Positions 1,848 to 37,460 of a stretch of DNA of 50,919 bases are shown piece by piece. Position 1 is the first letter of the stretch; every line of letters begins with the position of its first letter. The translations under genes were made by a program, and so were the position numbers. The stretch lies in assembly GCA_017525525.1 (NCBI GenBank), contig JAFXSQ010000064.1:1-50919 (forward strand). The letters are read 5' to 3'. This stretch comes from Lachnospiraceae bacterium (GTDB lineage: Bacteria > Bacillota > Clostridia > Lachnospirales > Lachnospiraceae). The notes below the pieces were generated by a model. It was not told the origin of the DNA and did not search any database. It saw only the letters and a list, made by a program, of their open reading frames with translations.

Positions 1848-4800
1848 ATGAAGAGATTTACCAAACGACTGCTTACCGGTGTGATAAGCGGTGCAATGGC
1901 CTTGAGTCTGTTCCCGGTAGCGGGGTATGGAAGCTATGAGGCCAAGGCAGCGGGTGAAGCGCAGGCCATCAATCCGGCGCTGCTTCCTCATGATACTGAG
2001 GATAGTATACTTCCCGGCTATTACAGCTGGATCCCGGAGTGGGGATATGATGTGTGGGATGAGGAGAATGACAGAAATCTTCGAACCTACATCACAGGGG
2101 TTGCAATACCTGAGGAATATAGCGGATATGCATCCGTAGATGTAACGGATGAGGATATAGATGGTGTCCTTGAGGGTGCTTTGATCAATACGCAGAGTGA
2201 AAGGGATGAAGAAGGCAATATAATTGTTGAACGTTCTGACAAGAAGGAGGATGCTGTCGGAGTAAGTATTCCTATAACCATCAGTTACAGGCTTGAAAGC
2301 GGATATGAGGGACATCTTACCCATACACTTCATCTTACCGACAGTGTGTATGAGATAAGGAGCTATACTTCGACAGGCGCGGACTCTCTGCTTCCCGGCC
2401 AGTCTTTTGTGGTTGATAATGAAGTGCGACATCGTGTGGCAAAGTGGGATGAAGAATTTGAGGAGTATTATCATGTGGATGTTCCTTTGGAGAACCCCGG
2501 ATACTCTTATTCGTTATATGACGATGGAGATGACAGAATTACTATCACTCCCAATGGAGAGAAGTTAACGATAACTGCACGTGAGAAGAAGTCCGGGGAT
2601 GATCCTGATGAGTTCTATAACTCAGTCGGTATAAAGCTTGATTTTTCCGAAAATGGAAAGCATGCGGCAGACTTTGGTTACTCAACGAGAATATCTGATC
2701 ACTATTATGGACTGCTTCCGGATAATTTTGAAGGGCTTAAGGACTTGAAGCTCGGCGGTTCCATAACCATCAGACCTGAGCTTAAGTACTATGACGAAGA
2801 AAAAGCACCGGAAGGCCAGGTGGTTGATGATGTAAGGTTCTGCTTTAAAAATGCTAACGAAGCAGCGGTTAATATAACTGATAACGAAGACGGAACTTAT
2901 ACTATTAAGAGAACTGCGGTATTTGAAAATGACTTTGAGTTCTCGGCAGAGTTTACAAACGTTGACGGTGATGAAGATGCTATCGACAGGCGTCCGTACA
3001 TGCTTGACATCGGAGTAGACAGTAATGTAACAATCAAGGAGGAGAACAATAACTTTGTGGTATTCTCCGATACAACTGCACGCACGTTTTATCTTGATGT
3101 AGCTAAGTTTGAGTCCATGTTTGAAGATCCGAGTACTTTGGAGATTAATTGCAAGGTGGGCTTCGGCGACTGGTCAGAGAACGGTTTTGAATTTTTCGAT
3201 GAGTTCGGTCCGGAGGACGGTGTAACCGTTGCGGCGGACGGTAGAAGCGTCACTGTTGACGGAACCAAGATGATCAATAAGTTTAACACGTGGGTTGATG
3301 GTGACGGAAACAAGCAGATAGAGGGAGATGACCGCTTCAGTATCTGCTTTACACTCAAGATGGAGGACAGCGAGGTTGAGCAGTTCTTTGTAGAGGACGC
3401 ACATGTCAGATATGCAAGAGTAAGTTACGACACATTATTCAATTCAAATGATCCCGAGTGGTGCTATGAAAAGTTCGTTCTTCCGGGGGACACTGTGTTC
3501 CTGGATGGTTTTTACTATTTTGTGGAGAATGATGCAAATCCGATGGGCAAATATGTGCCGTACAACATAAATGTTACTGAGATCAAAGGCTATGACTTCG
3601 GAGAAAACGGAGGTCTCGGTGAAGAGAAGTTCAGCACTGTTGTAGCCGAGGAAGTGGATGGCAGACCTGCATTAAAGGTGGCAACATCTGTTCCGCTTGG
3701 CGCACCTGAAGATAGCAATCTGTTCGGGATAAACGAGGTTTACTTCAATTTTGTTGATGCTGACGGCGAGACAAGGAGTGGCAAGCTGTATGTATATGTT
3801 TCTGATTTGGTTTCTGAGCTTAATATTACAAGCATCAATTGCAGTGATATGGCGAATATCAGAAAAAATGAGTTCGGCAGCTACAGTATTGAGACGCTTT
3901 TTAACGGAAGCGTGAGCGGTTCGGTAGCACTTCAGTCAACCGGTTATGATTTCGAGACCGGAGAAGTAAAGGATTGTAATTATGAAATCAGTTCTTTAAG
4001 ATTTGAAGAGCATTGGAAAGAGGGCGGTGCTTCCGTAAAGATAAACGGAGATAAGTTCATCATAAGTGATGCGGGAGCGACAGGAGATCAGGAAAGTGCT
4101 ATAGGCGGTGATTTTGTAGCCGAATACAATTACACCTGGATTGATGGAGATGGTATTGCCCATGAAGAGCAGGCTGAGCAGAGAAGATATATTGATGTTA
4201 ACTTTAGAAATGGAGACATTGAGACAGTAAACAATCTTCCTTTTGAAAATCTGGGTGATCTTAAGACTATCAATTGGACACCTGATTTAAGCTGGGCAGG
4301 CATAAATGATGAGACAGGAGAGTTCGGCATACAGGATTCTTCAAACTGGCATATATACGGTTTTGTGTATGATCAGTCAGCTATATCCATTACCGCAGAC
4401 GGTAAGGAGATTGGAAATGGTTTCTCGGAGGGACCCTTTACATTTACAAGCAAGATAGATAAGCCGACAGGGTTTATAATGGTTCTTGCAAGCTATGATC
4501 CAAGAAGCGGAAGCATAAGATATGACGGAAACCGCAAGGATTTTCTTGTAGACGGTACAGTAATAAAGAGAAGTCATTCGGAGCATAGCTGGACTGAGAG
4601 CATAGCAGATAAGGCAGGATTTGAAAAGGAAGGAACTATTGTCAGAACCTGTACAGTCGGTGGTGAGAAGGAGACAGAGGTTATACCTGCAATAGCTTCG
4701 GCTGAGATTACAAGTGAGCAGCTTAAGTACACCGGTCTTGAGCAGACTATAACCGTTGAGGTAAAGGATACTGAAGGTAATGTGATTCCTGAAGAGGATT

Positions 4801-29555: not shown

Positions 29556-30473
29556 ATGAAGAAGAAGAAAAAGCTGACGCTTATTCAGAAGCGCGCCATA
29601 ACCGGATTCCTGTTCATACTCCCGTGGCTTATAGGCTTCCTGTGGTTTTATGCAAAGAGTATTATCATGACCACACAGTTCTCGCTCTCGGAGCTGACTG
29701 TAAAGCCCGGAGGCGGATATACGCTGAAGTTTGTGGGACTTGAAAACTTCAGGTTTGCCTTTAGGGGGCACGGAACCTTTAAACAGATACTGACCACCTC
29801 GGTGGGGGATATGCTCATAGATGTACCGCTTATAACCTTCTTCTCACTGTTCATGGCTCTGCTTTTGAACAAGAAGTTCAAGGGGCGCACGCTTATAAGA
29901 GCGATATTCTTCCTTCCGGTAATCTTAAACTCCGAGGCCATAAGATCGGCTATGGAGATGTCGAGATCACTCCTTGCGGGCGGTGTTGCCTCAGCAAGCG
30001 CAGAGCTCGTGGAGGCTGCAGGCTCGGGCGGTGTCTCGGTTGAGTATTACATTCAGATGTTCACGAACCTCGGACTTCCGATGGGACTTATCGAGTACAT
30101 AATGGGAGCGGTAAGCAGGATAAGTGAGATAATCAACGCTTCGGGCGTGCAGATAATCATCTTTATCGCAGCGCTGCAGTCCATACCCGGATCCATGTAC
30201 GAGGTTGCAAAGATTGAGGGCGCAACAGGCTATGAGACCTTCTGGAAGGTAACCTTCCCTATGGTTATGCCCCATATCATAACGGTTGTGGTTTATACCG
30301 TGGTTGACAGCTTCGTCGATTCGCAGGTTGTAAACCTTGCTTACGAAACGGCCTTCGATCAGAAGAACTACGGACTCAGCTCCACATTTTCGCTTGTATC
30401 CACCGTCGTGACCTGCGCGATATTGCTAGTCGTCTGCCGGTTCATACAAAAGCGAACGTTCTACTATAACTAA
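29556..30473 (+). CDS. Sugar ABC transporter permease, second pair, first member
   Basis: ATG 29556 is preferred over GTG 29550 because AGGAG (29544-29548) is 7 bases upstream of ATG and would overlap the GTG. The preceding gene's stop overlaps this region, so translation is coupled. The 305-aa product has a short basic N-terminus, six membrane helices and the EAA loop 'EVAKIEGATGYETFWKVTFP'. Between helices there is a Ser/Ala/Gly-rich periplasm-side stretch (about residues 138-160). The type resembles LplB/UgpA permeases for complex oligosaccharides. It forms a channel with the permease at 30574 and is probably served by the lipoprotein binding protein at 33757. Confidence 0.88.
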   Translation: MKKKKKLTLIQKRAITGFLFILPWLIGFLWFYAKSIIMTTQFSLSELTVKPGGGYTLKFVGLENFRFAFRGHGTFKQILTTSVGDMLIDVPLITFFSLFMALLLNKKFKGRTLIRAIFFLPVILNSEAIRSAMEMSRSLLAGGVASASAELVEAAGSGGVSVEYYIQMFTNLGLPMGLIEYIMGAVSRISEIINASGVQIIIFIAALQSIPGSMYEVAKIEGATGYETFWKVTFPMVMPHIITVVVYTVVDSFVDSQVVNLAYETAFDQKNYGLSSTFSLVSTVVTCAILLVVCRFIQKRTFYYN

Positions 30474-30485
30474 GGAGGTGCACAA

Positions 30486-30584
30486 ATGACGAAGTTATTT
30501 CTTGCATGTGCACCGACGTTTTGGCAGGATTTGCTTGCAAATCGTGCCGTTACCTTAGAAGGAGGTGTGACAAATGAGCGCTGA
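30486..30584 (+). CDS. Possible 32-aa leader peptide between two permease genes
   Basis: ATG 30486 is preceded by a very strong AAGGAGGTG (30472-30480). The frame runs 32 codons (MTKLFLACAPTFWQDLLANR...) and stops at 30582-30584, overlapping the next permease start at 30574 by 11 bases. Its start context (AAGGAGGTGCACAAATGA) closely resembles that of the next gene (AAGGAGGTGTGACAAATGA), so the segment may be a partial duplication of the permease start region. It could couple translation of the two permeases. Whether the peptide has a function is unknown. Confidence 0.4.
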   Translation: MTKLFLACAPTFWQDLLANRAVTLEGGVTNER

Positions 30585-31770: not shown

Positions 31771-33660
31771 GTGAAGAAAAAGAAAGCACAAATTGCATCA
31801 CTGCTACTGGCATCGGCCATGGCCTTTTCGCTTACCGGATGCGGCGGCAGTGACAGCAAGGAGACAACTACCGCAGCAACAACGGCAGCGGCAGCAGAGA
31901 CAACAACAGAGGCAGCAGCAACAGATGAGGCAACAACAGAGGCTCCTGCTCCGGCAGCGGCAAGCATTGATTTTGAGGATGGCAATTTCGCATTCATAAA
32001 GGGTGCGGCAGGAACAGAGGTCTCACTCGCAGACTTCAACGGATCCAAGGCAGTAAAGGTTGTAAATGCAGATGTTAAGGCAGCCTTCGGCTTAAATGTA
32101 TCGCAGGTTCTCGGCTCCGATACTGACAAGGTTGCAACCATCACCATTGATATGGGTATCGTAAATCCCGACGGCAAGTTCCAGGCTGTCAGCGGAAAGA
32201 TGTACTCCTACACAGGCGAGAAGCTTGAGGAGGTTCAGGGCGATGCATGGTCGGTTTACACCGAGAGCGCTAACCCAAAGACAGCTAAGTTCGATGTAAG
32301 CGGCGCAGGCTTCATCCCCGGCATGGATAACTACTTTATCATCCAGAAGGAGACAGATAACGGTGTTACCAAGGGCGAGGCAGCAGCAGAGATCTACATC
32401 GACAACATTTCATTCCTTGATGCAGAGGGCAATGTACTCGTTGCAAACTCGGCAGCAGACTTCGGTTCACCGGCTAACTTCGGTTCGGCAGGCGTTGACA
32501 GAGGAAACCTGTTCGGTATCATCAAGCCTCTTGCGGTAGATGCAGCACCTAAGGGTGACGCATGGGCACAGGACGGCTTTGATATGTCGGAAGACTTTAT
32601 CGCAGCGCTTGTTCCGGGCTCGGTTGTAGAGATCAACTACAAGTCAGAGACAGGACATATGTGGATAGTAATGCCTGATTCAGAGGCAGGCTGGATGAGA
32701 GTCGGCGTAGGTGACTGCGACGGTTCGGGCCAGCAGTATGCATACACCAACAATGCAGGTAACACTGCACAGATCACTTACGAGCAGATCGCAGCGGTTT
32801 GCGGTGATGATGTAAGCAAGTGGGGCGCAAGGATGCAGTTTGAGTCTGACGGTGCATGGGAGGTAACCTCGGTATGTGTCGGAACAGCAGCTCCTAACTA
32901 TGTAATAGAGAAGGGTGCCGTGGATCTCGGTGCGGCAGTTAAGGCTGATGCGTGGGCGCAGGATGGTGTTGAGCTTTCGGAGGAGGCAAAGGCAGCACTT
33001 GTTCCGGGATCTGTAGTAGAGATAAGCTACAAGTCAGATACAGGACATATGTGGATAGTAATGCCTGATGCAGAGGCAGGCTGGATGAGAGTCGGCGTAG
33101 GCGACTGGGACGGTTCAGGTCAGGGTTATATAACAAACGACGGCTCTAAGGCTTACGTACCTTATGAGGTTCTTGCTGAAATCCTCGGTGAGGATGTAAG
33201 CAAGTGGGGTGCAAGGATGCAGTTCGAGTCCGACAGCCCATGGGAGGTTACCGGCGCAAGGATCGGTACTGCCGGACTGATCACTCCTAACAACAGCCAG
33301 CTTGACCTTGGCGCAGCTGTAAAGGCTGATGCATGGGCACAGGACGGCGTAGAGCTTTCGGACGACGCTATCGCAGCACTTGTTCCGGGTTCGGTTATCA
33401 ACGCAAGCTACAAGTCAGACAGCGGAGAGCTTTGGCTCGTATTCCCGGATGCAGAAAAGGGCTGGACAAGAGTCGGTGTAGGCGACTATGACGGTTCAGG
33501 TCAGGGCTATGCAGCATGCACAGGAACATCAATGCAGGTAACTTACGAAGAGATCGCTGAAATACTCGGTGACGACACGTCCAAGTGGGGCAAGAGAGTT
33601 CAGTTCGAGGCTTCTTCTCCGTGGGAGGTTACAAGCGCAAGCATTGGTACTGTAAAGTAA
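31771..33660 (+). CDS. Lipoprotein with N-terminal CBM-like domain and three tandem ~115-residue repeats
   Basis: GTG 31771 follows GGGAGG by 10 bases. The signal peptide ends in lipobox LTGC (Cys about 23), then comes a Thr/Ala/Glu linker (to about 67). A beta-sandwich domain (about 68-225) opens with 'IDFEDGNFAF' and closes with 'EIYIDNISFLDAEG', as in carbohydrate-binding jelly rolls. Three tandem repeats (about 252-372, 388-498 and 514-629) each carry 'ADAWAQDG', 'AALVPGSV', 'W.V.PD.E.GW.RVGVGD.DGSGQ' and 'W...Q FE...PWEVTSA'-like motifs with many Trp/Asp. I do not know the repeat family; ligand binding, perhaps glycan, is inferred. It sits upstream of the binding-protein gene, so it probably helps capture substrate at the cell surface. 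Confidence 0.75.
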   Translation: MKKKKAQIASLLLASAMAFSLTGCGGSDSKETTTAATTAAAAETTTEAAATDEATTEAPAPAAASIDFEDGNFAFIKGAAGTEVSLADFNGSKAVKVVNADVKAAFGLNVSQVLGSDTDKVATITIDMGIVNPDGKFQAVSGKMYSYTGEKLEEVQGDAWSVYTESANPKTAKFDVSGAGFIPGMDNYFIIQKETDNGVTKGEAAAEIYIDNISFLDAEGNVLVANSAADFGSPANFGSAGVDRGNLFGIIKPLAVDAAPKGDAWAQDGFDMSEDFIAALVPGSVVEINYKSETGHMWIVMPDSEAGWMRVGVGDCDGSGQQYAYTNNAGNTAQITYEQIAAVCGDDVSKWGARMQFESDGAWEVTSVCVGTAAPNYVIEKGAVDLGAAVKADAWAQDGVELSEEAKAALVPGSVVEISYKSDTGHMWIVMPDAEAGWMRVGVGDWDGSGQGYITNDGSKAYVPYEVLAEILGEDVSKWGARMQFESDSPWEVTGARIGTAGLITPNNSQLDLGAAVKADAWAQDGVELSDDAIAALVPGSVINASYKSDSGELWLVFPDAEKGWTRVGVGDYDGSGQGYAACTGTSMQVTYEEIAEILGDDTSKWGKRVQFEASSPWEVTSASIGTVK

Positions 33661-35351: not shown

Positions 35352-35993
35352 ATGTTTTCACCGGACGGTAGCTTAAGCAGAATACTTTCAACGGTTTTCG
35401 ATGTGTTGATGATAGGGATACTGTGGCTTGTCACAAGCCTGCCGATTATCACTCTCGTTCCTGCGACGATATCCGCTTATCATACCATGGCTAAGGTTGT
35501 AAGGTACAAGAGCGGCTACATAAGAGAGGAGTTCTTTGCAGAGTTTAAAGCAAACTTCAAGAGGACGCTGCCGCTGATGATAGTAAATACTGTGCTGACA
35601 GCGCTATTCGTTGTGGAGCTTGTGTACCTTTGGTCTCTTGATGCAAAGAAGTACGGCCCAATGTTCATGATTGTTTTGGGAATAGCATTTTTGTACACCT
35701 GTGTGATTATGTACATTCCGGCATTTCTCTCGCGCTTCGATGAGAAGGTATGGGATGTGATAAAGCTTTCGGCTTATGTGGCCTTCAGATATCTGCCGGT
35801 AACCGTGCTTATGATCATAGTGCTTATAGCAGCGTGCTTAGCGGTATGGATCGCGCCCTGGGCCTGTGTTGTTTTGCCGGGCGTGTACATATTCCTGATT
35901 ACATTTCCGATGGAAAAGATACTGAAGGTGTTTATCGAGGATGATGAGGATGCGTGGTGGGAGGATAACTCTGATACTAATACTAAAGAGTGA
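35352..35993 (+). CDS. Second YesL-like (DUF624) membrane protein
   Basis: The 213-aa product has about five membrane helices and the family signature 'LWLVTSLPIITLVPATISAYH' near the N-terminus. It ends in an acidic tail (EDDEDAWWEDNSDTN). It is clearly homologous to the 18646 product (both share 'DV.M....W...SLPI.T..PA...YH', 'YIP.FLSRF' and 'FRY...T'). The ribosome site is weak (TAAGG at 35344-35348). It lies behind a strong terminator, so it probably depends on read-through or an unseen promoter. Function in the family is unknown; the association with sugar importers is established by recurring gene context. Confidence 0.85.
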   Translation: MFSPDGSLSRILSTVFDVLMIGILWLVTSLPIITLVPATISAYHTMAKVVRYKSGYIREEFFAEFKANFKRTLPLMIVNTVLTALFVVELVYLWSLDAKKYGPMFMIVLGIAFLYTCVIMYIPAFLSRFDEKVWDVIKLSAYVAFRYLPVTVLMIIVLIAACLAVWIAPWACVVLPGVYIFLITFPMEKILKVFIEDDEDAWWEDNSDTNTKE

Positions 35994-36129: not shown

Positions 36130-36388
36130 TGGCTACCAAAAAGGAAGAAAACCCTGAAAAAGGTAGCCAAACAGGCGAAATAAGACAAGAAAACCCTGGA
36201 AATGGCTACCAAAAAGGAAGAAAACCCTGAAAAAGGTAGCCAAACAGACGGGAAAAAGCAAGAAAACCCTGGAAATGGCTACCAAAAAGGTCAAAAAAAC
36301 AAAAAAAGGTAGCCAAACAGGCGAAATAAGGCGAGAGATTCCGGAAACTGGCTACCAAAAAGGAAGAAAACCTTGAAAAAGGTAGCCA
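36130..36388. repeat. Four-unit 73-bp tandem array of GGCTACC/GGTAGCC hairpins
   Basis: GGCTACC occurs at 36131, 36204, 36277 and 36350, and its complement GGTAGCC at 36162, 36235, 36308 and 36381. Both series step exactly 73 bases. Each unit can form an 8-bp stem (TGGCTACC/GGTAGCCA) around a 24-base A/G-rich loop, and the 'AAGAAAACCCTG' word is repeated in loop and linker. Copies 1 and 2 are nearly identical, and copy 3 has a diverged loop. Stop codons and the non-triplet period rule out coding. The rest of the 435-base gap (35994-36129, 36389-36428) holds nothing I recognise. The array lies just upstream of the GH130 gene, so a regulatory role is plausible. Confidence 0.9.
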
Positions 36389-36437
36389 AACAGCAAAAGC
36401 AATGTAAACAAATTATATTATCAGGAGGATGACGATA

Positions 36438-37460
36438 ATGTCAGTTAAGATGTTGAACTGCCCGGCAGTTCCGAATATCCCGTGGCAGGAGAAGCCTGCG
36501 GTTCTCAAGGATGCTCCAATCTGGAGATACGACAAGAACCCGATTATAGACAGAAACCCGATTGAGAATGTAGCCCGTATCTTTAATTCGGCTGTTATGC
36601 CCTACGGTGATAAGTTCGTAGGTGTGTTCAGAGGTGAGGGAAGAAACGGTGTGTCATTCATTTACCTCGGCTGGAGCGAGGATGCAATACACTGGGAGTT
36701 TGAGAAGGAGAAGGTTAATTTCGTCAACGAGAAGGGCGAGCCCTTCCAGCCCAACTATGCATATGATCCGAGACTTGTTAAGGTTGAGGATACTTATTAC
36801 ATCATGTGGTGCGTCGATTTCTACGGCGCTGCCATAGGCCTTGCCAAGACCACGGATTTCAAGACCTTTGTAAGACTTGAGAATCCCTTCCTTCCATTCA
36901 ACAGAAATGCGGTTTTATTCCCGAGAAAGATAAACGGAAACTTTGTTATGCTCTCACGTCCTTCGGACAGCGGACACACTCCCTTCGGCGATATATTCGT
37001 ATCCGAGAGCCCGGATCTTACCTACTGGGGCAAGCACCGTCATGTGATGGGAAGAAGCTCGGAGTGGTGGGAGTCACTCAAGATAGGAGGAGGTGCTGCT
37101 CCTATAGAGACTACAGAAGGCTGGCTTTTGTTCTATCACGGTGTAAGCGGAACCTGCAACGGATATGTATATTCTATTGGCGGAGCAATCCTTGACATCG
37201 ATAATCCGTCTATAGTTAAGTATCGCTGCGAGAATTTCATACTCACTCCGGAAGCAGAGTATGAGGAGAGAGGCTTTGTTCCGAATGTTACATTCCCATG
37301 CGCAACCATTCACGATCCGGAGACGGGAAGAATTGCACTTTACTACGGTGCGGCTGACTCTTATGTTGCGCTTGCGTTTACCGAGCTTGAGCCGATAGTT
37401 GATTATATCAAGGCACATAGTGTTACAAGGCATGATGACACCGAGATCGGAATAAGATAG
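36438..37460 (+). CDS. GH130 beta-1,4-mannoside phosphorylase
   Basis: ATG 36438 is chosen because AGGAGG (36423-36428) is 9 bases upstream; the earlier in-frame ATG 36429 overlaps that site. The 340-aa protein has no signal peptide and is cytoplasmic. It has the five-bladed propeller pattern of GH130: 'RIFNSAVMPYGDKFVGVFRGE', 'YAYDPRLVK' with the presumed general acid Asp110, 'GLAKTTDF', 'LLFYHGVSGTCNGYVYSIG' and 'FPCATIHDPETGRIALYYGAAD'. Family enzymes phosphorolyse beta-1,4-mannosides to mannose-1-phosphate. Length and N-terminus favour the manno-oligosaccharide group (GH130_2 type) over mannosyl-glucose phosphorylase, but this is not certain. It conserves energy from imported mannan fragments. 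Confidence 0.9.
   Translation: MSVKMLNCPAVPNIPWQEKPAVLKDAPIWRYDKNPIIDRNPIENVARIFNSAVMPYGDKFVGVFRGEGRNGVSFIYLGWSEDAIHWEFEKEKVNFVNEKGEPFQPNYAYDPRLVKVEDTYYIMWCVDFYGAAIGLAKTTDFKTFVRLENPFLPFNRNAVLFPRKINGNFVMLSRPSDSGHTPFGDIFVSESPDLTYWGKHRHVMGRSSEWWESLKIGGGAAPIETTEGWLLFYHGVSGTCNGYVYSIGGAILDIDNPSIVKYRCENFILTPEAEYEERGFVPNVTFPCATIHDPETGRIALYYGAADSYVALAFTELEPIVDYIKAHSVTRHDDTEIGIR

Follow-up and report, generated by a model that had tools for sequence, protein, structure and literature searches.

An array of paired inverted heptamers beside a GH130 gene is probably a dispersed copy of the cognate sites of a PD-(D/E)XK-type protein in Lachnospiraceae

Interspersed repeats of the MIRU/BOX type are short intergenic tandem repeats that occur at many loci, and we know of none that has a cognate nuclease with an array of its own. 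The Ssn nucleases of Neisseria reportedly combine a nuclease of the GIY-YIG fold with dispersed cognate palindromic repeats, termed NTS, which are said to lie outside phased tandem arrays and to have a link to transformation. In REP/RAYT systems, dispersed intergenic palindromes go with one cognate gene that is itself flanked by repeats, and the divergence of the enzyme is paralleled by that of its repeats; TnpA-REP belongs to the HUH enzymes and acts on REP in single-stranded form (PMC8266576). TIGR-Tas systems have a tandem array up- or downstream of one gene, with repeats constant within a locus and different between loci, and with palindromes in some arrays; a unit measures about 36 nt, the spacers are variable, and the associated protein has a Nop domain (PMC12045711). 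No papers on the arrays or the nuclease described below were found in the openly available literature.

The window analyzed here is the whole stretch of 50,919 bp, in which a first-pass annotation had reported eight alternating heptamers, at 31- and 42-base steps and with an exact 73-base period over four units, upstream of a GH130 gene. All of these positions were as claimed. The features, all on the plus strand, are as follows.

36131..36387, + (A-rich strand): four-unit array of paired inverted heptamers, period 73 bp (from heptamer positions, TRF and A-tract phasing)
36131..36168, +: unit 1, 38-bp palindromic GGCTACC-N24-GGTAGCC (from heptamer positions)
36169..36203, +: linker 1, 35 bp (from sequence and heptamer positions)
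36204..36241, +: unit 2, 38-bp palindromic (from heptamer positions)
36242-36276 and 36315-36349, +: linkers 2 and 3 (from sequence and heptamer positions)
36277..36314, +: unit 3, 38-bp palindromic, inner sequence different (from heptamer positions)
36350..36387, +: unit 4, 38-bp palindromic (from heptamer positions)
35352..35993, +: upstream neighbor, DUF624 (PF04854) membrane protein, ending 137 bp before the array; outside the system
36429..37460, +: downstream neighbor, GH130 (PF04041), starting 41 bp after the array; outside the system

The heptamers GGCTACC and GGTAGCC alternate at 36131, 36162, 36204, 36235, 36277, 36308, 36350 and 36381, with steps of exactly 31 and 42 bp and no indels. 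All eight exact heptamers in the window lie inside the array; unlike the bare count, which is unremarkable by itself (shuffle mean 3.7, with eight or more in 3/100 shuffles), their clustering and spacing are the remarkable part. TRF scored the array at 380 for period 73 and 421 for period 146, and among 50 one-kb pieces of the window only the piece containing it reached the tandem threshold (self-identity of at least 58/100, 58 being the highest value in any shuffle). Because 73 is no multiple of 3 and the only overlapping ORF, a 121-aa antisense one, reaches just 9 bp into it, the array is non-coding; its 257 bp contain 22 T and 128 A, so both the non-coding and the T-poor character ascribed to it were borne out. 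A shared sequence had also been placed in loops and linkers alike, and AAGAAAACCCTG does occur four times, once in each of the first two loops and the first two linkers. Its assignment to each loop was overstated, as unit 4 has a one-base variant and unit 3 and linker 3 are without it. The suggested build-up by duplication is supported. A-tracts in the array are spaced by ∼10.4 bp (power 28.8 at 10.43 bp, matched by 0/2000 shuffles), and in one single unit a periodicity as high was seen in 3/5000 shuffles. No Rfam RNA was found at the array, nor were plasmid relatives of its DNA. Elsewhere in the window, a GA-cis RNA (RF02987; 41 bits, gathering 34.7) lies at 30470-30558 (+), just 5′ of a transporter-permease-like ORF at 30574, and a coding tandem repeat of period 381 occupies 32941-33652 inside a 629-aa ORF (31771-33660).

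BLAST of the array against its own genome returned 35 matches, 18 of them at E < 1e-5, and the exact pair pattern occurred 39 times (54 at up to two mismatches; reversed-pattern control, 8). Reading the loci one by one gave about 16 places, with each of four contig-end pairs carrying matching units (C2/C70, C15/C4, C11/C24 and C26/C45) taken as presumably one place. Arrays were found at comEC/nuclease, panC/panD, thyA/folA, hisG/hisD, rsmB/rlmN and dapF/GH3, as well as before secA, tyrS, gltX, an ldh-type gene and others, and no functional theme was found among these neighbors. The arms are GGCTAAC/GTTAGCC at five places and mixed at one. The first-pass annotation had proposed control of mannoside catabolism and had itself named scatter beside unrelated genes as the finding that would speak against it; that scatter was looked for and is present throughout the genome, so a mannoside role is not supported and a mannoside operator was rejected. 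It is also unlikely that each array is a cis-regulatory or curved-DNA element used by a host regulator at whichever genes adjoin it. The intergenic position, the bent DNA predicted from phased A-tracts and the secA array, which lies upstream of a sigma-70-like promoter as read by eye, would suit such local operators, but the neighbors lack a common theme and the thyA-folA site is mostly empty: the genome studied has four units there and G024 one at the same spot, whereas the other 28 of 30 thyA-folA loci in the genus have only 10-114 bp and no unit.

Outside its own genome, the 38-mer was found in one scan of genome contigs, in RUG655 and in the rumen MAGs RGIG4903 and RGIG9274 (titled Lachnospiraceae); the latter two belong to another genus, RGIG9274 matching G175, and keep the unit and a 73/74-bp step with unrelated, GC-richer linkers. 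A loose unit pattern matched 3/37 genus genomes, one of them (G015) chance-like, and a stricter pattern matched 2/397 family genomes. The nuclease described below was not found in G024, which has the unit and is 80% complete.

Next to comEC on contig C4 of the same genome lies a gene for a 270-aa protein, and the last heptamer of the array there ends 55 bp before it; at L046 and L049 an array likewise lies between comEC and a homologue of this gene. The protein family had no match in Pfam or NCBIfam and no convincing match in the PDB. Residues ∼150-262 match the PADLOC PD-DEXK and candidate defense models; for the C-terminal ∼110 residues, matches to PDC-S68, PDC-S69 and HEAT_CxxC_PDDEXK have an E value of 6e-26 for the protein of this genome and down to 3e-30 for relatives. 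Across 26 aligned proteins, E164, P193-D194 and E209-H210 do not vary, and the alignment together with the PADLOC matches identifies the conserved acidic active-site motifs of the PD-(D/E)XK superfamily. The E-H-x-G pattern as written matches 81/102 proteins and all three strict motifs match only 76/102, so activity may not be universal among these putative nucleases.

The nuclease is present in 19/37 genus genomes and in 46 of the 150 genera sampled of the bacterial family, five of which are represented by fragments or the C-terminal domain only, with up to seven copies in one genome (G109). Of 398 phylum genomes sampled, six matched at 1e-30, five from the same family and one from another family with the C-terminal domain only, which leaves the full-length protein in its own family alone within that sample. 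Plasmid records match only 23-41% of the nuclease, with an annotated AAA ATPase in 6/7. Three phage records match, one of which covers 87% and is an unannotated 4.2-kb fecal contig, and there are matches at nine viral-contig loci, of which the longest spans residues 101-234. A second nuclease of the genome studied (L115 1448-2216, contig C75), whose array has a 53-bp period and AGTCAACC arms, is 92.6% identical to L092 of another genus (G148), which suggests horizontal transfer.

comEC lies just upstream at 11/105 nuclease loci, a lower bound as the flanks examined were mostly ≤1.5 kb, and comEC linkage is also inferred by contig ends in the genome studied and in G030. Of the 12 comEC-linked rows, 10 fall in one starred 14-row clade of the nuclease tree. 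From this linkage it could be supposed that the nuclease works together with the uptake channel ComEC on DNA entering the cell, and that the arrays serve as a self-recognition or cutting signal. This appears unlikely, if somewhat less so than the other alternatives considered: comEC was not seen at most of the 105 loci and may just be a tolerant neighbor, and the arrays are tandem and far fewer than uptake sequences are reported to be.

For arrays beside nuclease genes, 105 distinct loci were counted; eleven rows consisting of a fragment or the C-terminal part alone had been dropped, as had the second piece of the interrupted gene in G029. Two duplicates, L076 (a repeat of the L115 gene) and L049 (from the genome that also gave L085), stand outside this count, and the nucleases of G242 (6), G296 and G292 stand outside the array counts. 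Inverted exact 7-bp pairs, at least two in 900 bp, occurred upstream at 48/94 loci and downstream at 19/94, against 1/94 in the best of 10 shuffles. Tandem arrays within 1 kb were found 5′ of 64/104 genes, 3′ of 28/104 and on either side of 79/105. As a control, 10/194 one-kb windows from 20 regions of the same genomes, unmatched for intergenic content, passed the threshold, all ten with periods divisible by 3 as in coding repeats; against these unmatched windows the excess of 5′ arrays has a Fisher p of 9e-27. TRF found periods of at least 45 within 700 bp at 77/105 loci, and 91/105 had an array by any detector; the 14/105 at which none was detected include some truncated at contig ends. The median distance from the end of an upstream array to the start codon is 91 bp (60 loci). 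The three-prime arrays, if fewer, are real, so an operator role cannot be general.

Several loci depart from this arrangement or add to it. One nuclease subgroup (L079, L081, L157, L158 and L080) has its array downstream and not upstream. At L029 (1388-4040) a second, longer array of nearly the same units (about 3440-4040) follows 2.5 kb after the nuclease, and between the two arrays lie two minus-strand ORFs, by reading sigma-factor-like and a partner, as if inserted. Contig starts cluster just 5′ of the nuclease, with 14 plus-strand matches ≤800 bp from a contig start versus 3 full-length minus-strand matches, as expected if assemblies break at arrays.

The arms differ between divergent nucleases, examples being GGTAACA, TACTGTA, GGCTAAG, TTACCTATAAG, GTGACCG, GCGAACA and TACGCGC. 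In a comparison of 60 loci with clear arms (two of 62 were left out as short proteins), an arm hexamer was common to 9/9 nuclease pairs at ≥70% identity, 2/10 at 60-70%, 1/50 at 50-60% and 10/1701 below 50%, and arm similarity correlated with protein identity (Mantel r = 0.39, p = 0.0005); common descent by itself would account for part of the sharing among close relatives. In G109 the seven nucleases have seven different arm sets among the hexamers listed, and one of these sets (L113) is low-complexity. Six further genomes were searched with the arms of their own nuclease, and in five the cognate arms are scattered away from it: G026 has 44 units on 18 contigs, G012, G030 and G029 have 14, 14 and 28, in each case including units at loci other than the nuclease, and G109 has 20, spread over the contig of the nuclease and two more, one of these chance-like. 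In G196 both of the two units lie at the nuclease. The cognate arms gave no hits in G009 and G192, genomes without that nuclease, and reversed-pattern controls gave none in any of these searches. Three arm families have one frame in common: arm, four A/T-rich positions, ∼N6, central A-tract, ∼N6, four A/T-rich positions, arm.

Neutral satellite DNA, which the first-pass annotation had named as what absence from all relatives with variable copy number between isolates would point to, would, if expanded by slippage and near nucleases by chance or shared hitch-hiking, account for unit numbers that vary at one site (thyA-folA, 1 versus 4) and for arrays that survive where the nuclease is broken, as in G029, which has an interrupted frame and keeps its 28 units. 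Units within arrays are no more decayed there than in G026 (uniformity of 0.84 versus 0.86). We regard this reading as very improbable, since the arrays accompany a single gene family and match its arms; their enrichment at nucleases, conserved frame and whole-turn periods also stand against it.

Array periods are mostly 51-54, 61-64 and 71-75 bp, corresponding to 5, 6 and 7 helical turns. Of 75 periods, 56 lie within 1.5 bp of a multiple of 10.5, where 29% would be expected. A Rayleigh test at 10.5 bp gave R = 0.66 (n = 71); R was 0.63 (n = 50, p = 2e-9) with relatives of ≥60% identity removed, and p was 0.002 (n = 20) with those of ≥40% removed. Trial periods from 10 to 11 bp fit about equally well, so the result is one of clustering near 10.5 bp rather than a measurement of 10.5. 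The 5/6/7-turn class changes 17 times on the nuclease tree (“quick” method), on which five of the period labels were assigned manually, from TRF output and inspection. At 33/59 loci one of the two arm-to-arm spacings measures 29-32 bp (20% expected if uniform), and the second is then near 2, 3 or 4 turns. Exceptions are periods of about 113 in L066, L068 and L077, 86 in L093 and 57 in the downstream array of L151.

These periods bear on the proposal that the array gives rise to an sRNA or sponge transcript and, more broadly, on whether the protein, much as in TIGR-Tas, uses hairpins or guide-like RNAs made from transcribed arrays. In the genome studied, the downstream gene has the A-rich strand as its sense strand at 16/16 places, as does the nuclease at 50/60 five-prime arrays across the loci, the transcript is predicted to fold well (z = −7.8), and both arms change together in the GGCTAAC/GTTAGCC arrays, all of which an RNA-level element would explain. 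The strand bias is, however, weak in four other genomes (11/17, by rough ORF calls), the inner hexamers are unlike guides in being alike within an array and different between loci (mean identities of 0.92 between neighboring units and 0.60 between loci in the genome studied), and no Nop or other RNA-binding family appears among the 25 listed of 31 Pfam families. An sRNA or sponge is disfavored because the periods found throughout the family stay at whole numbers of turns of double-helical DNA, and an RNA-level element in general seems to us improbable.

We consider it reasonably probable, at about 60%, that the array at the GH130 locus is a dispersed copy of the cognate site array of a PD-(D/E)XK-type protein, with dimer binding, autoregulation and spreading as inferred parts of that reading; a protein-binding array, one of the initial suggestions, is retained as probable. 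Both the period and the frame favor double-stranded DNA that carries its sites on a single face, for which a dimer spanning the two arms would be the simplest reader. Such a dimer would read a pair of arms separated by about three turns along a single face of the helix, phased A-tracts would bend the bound DNA, and the next dimer would follow after another 2, 3 or 4 turns, again on that face. The array at the nuclease's own gene would act as an autoregulatory operator. An occasional nick or cut in a unit, repaired from neighboring copies, could duplicate and homogenize units, and cutting and repair might now and then seed an array at a new locus. Cognate arms, arrays before the gene and uniform units would all fit a self-controlling nuclease whose repaired breaks copy its sites, and the broken nuclease of G029 appears neither to help nor to exclude the spreading step. 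The GH130-locus array would then be a tolerated passenger and no dedicated mannoside switch, which may still alter expression of the flanking genes. More tentatively, the whole may be a self-propagating system of one bacterial family in which the putative nuclease binds helix-phased palindrome arrays of matching specificity and, through cutting and repair, amplifies, homogenizes and scatters its sites in host genomes, with many orthogonal pairs per cell, for which the seven nucleases of G109 are the example.

On this account, an unnamed and widespread protein family is tied to a class of repeats that often coincide with the ends of contigs. The system offers orthogonal protein-DNA pairs with a specificity readable from the genome, as well as a clean way to test in vivo if tandem repeats are created and spread by a nuclease, and the whole-turn rule makes a DNA-level mechanism testable with simple spacing mutants.

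As judged from sequence and from the openly available literature, this putative nuclease-repeat system could be matched to no described family, in keeping with the initial remark that no named element fits. CRISPR was rejected, as both repeats and linkers are duplicated within the arrays of this genome and the nuclease has no cas match above the cut-off. Like TIGR-Tas, an array lies beside one gene and its repeats are locus-specific; unlike TIGR-Tas, the period is 53-75 bp and units are near-identical within an array. Spacers do not vary from unit to unit (inner identity of 0.84-0.92 in three genomes, unit 3 of the window being the exception) and no Nop domain was matched by sequence in the nuclease family among the 25 listed of 31 Pfam families; TIGR-like guides were rejected. 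The PADLOC candidates PDC-S68, PDC-S69 and HEAT_CxxC_PDDEXK match at the C terminus, whereas their profiles, of 288 to 1273 positions, have other N-terminal parts. MIRU/BOX repeats, as generally described, are alike in being intergenic at many loci and unlike in the nuclease partner found here. Ssn/NTS is reportedly alike in joining a nuclease to cognate repeats and unlike in fold and in the phased tandem arrays. Scans of Pfam (25 of 31 families listed), NCBIfam and PHROGs found no HUH (Y1) transposase family at the cognate gene. By its sequence features, the system works like REP/RAYT (“REPtrons”), with dispersed palindromes cognate to the resident gene that carries them in the genome studied and in 5/6 further genomes, but it fails the defining enzyme of REP/RAYT: here the C terminus is PD-(D/E)XK-like, and the units stand in helix-phased tandem arrays.
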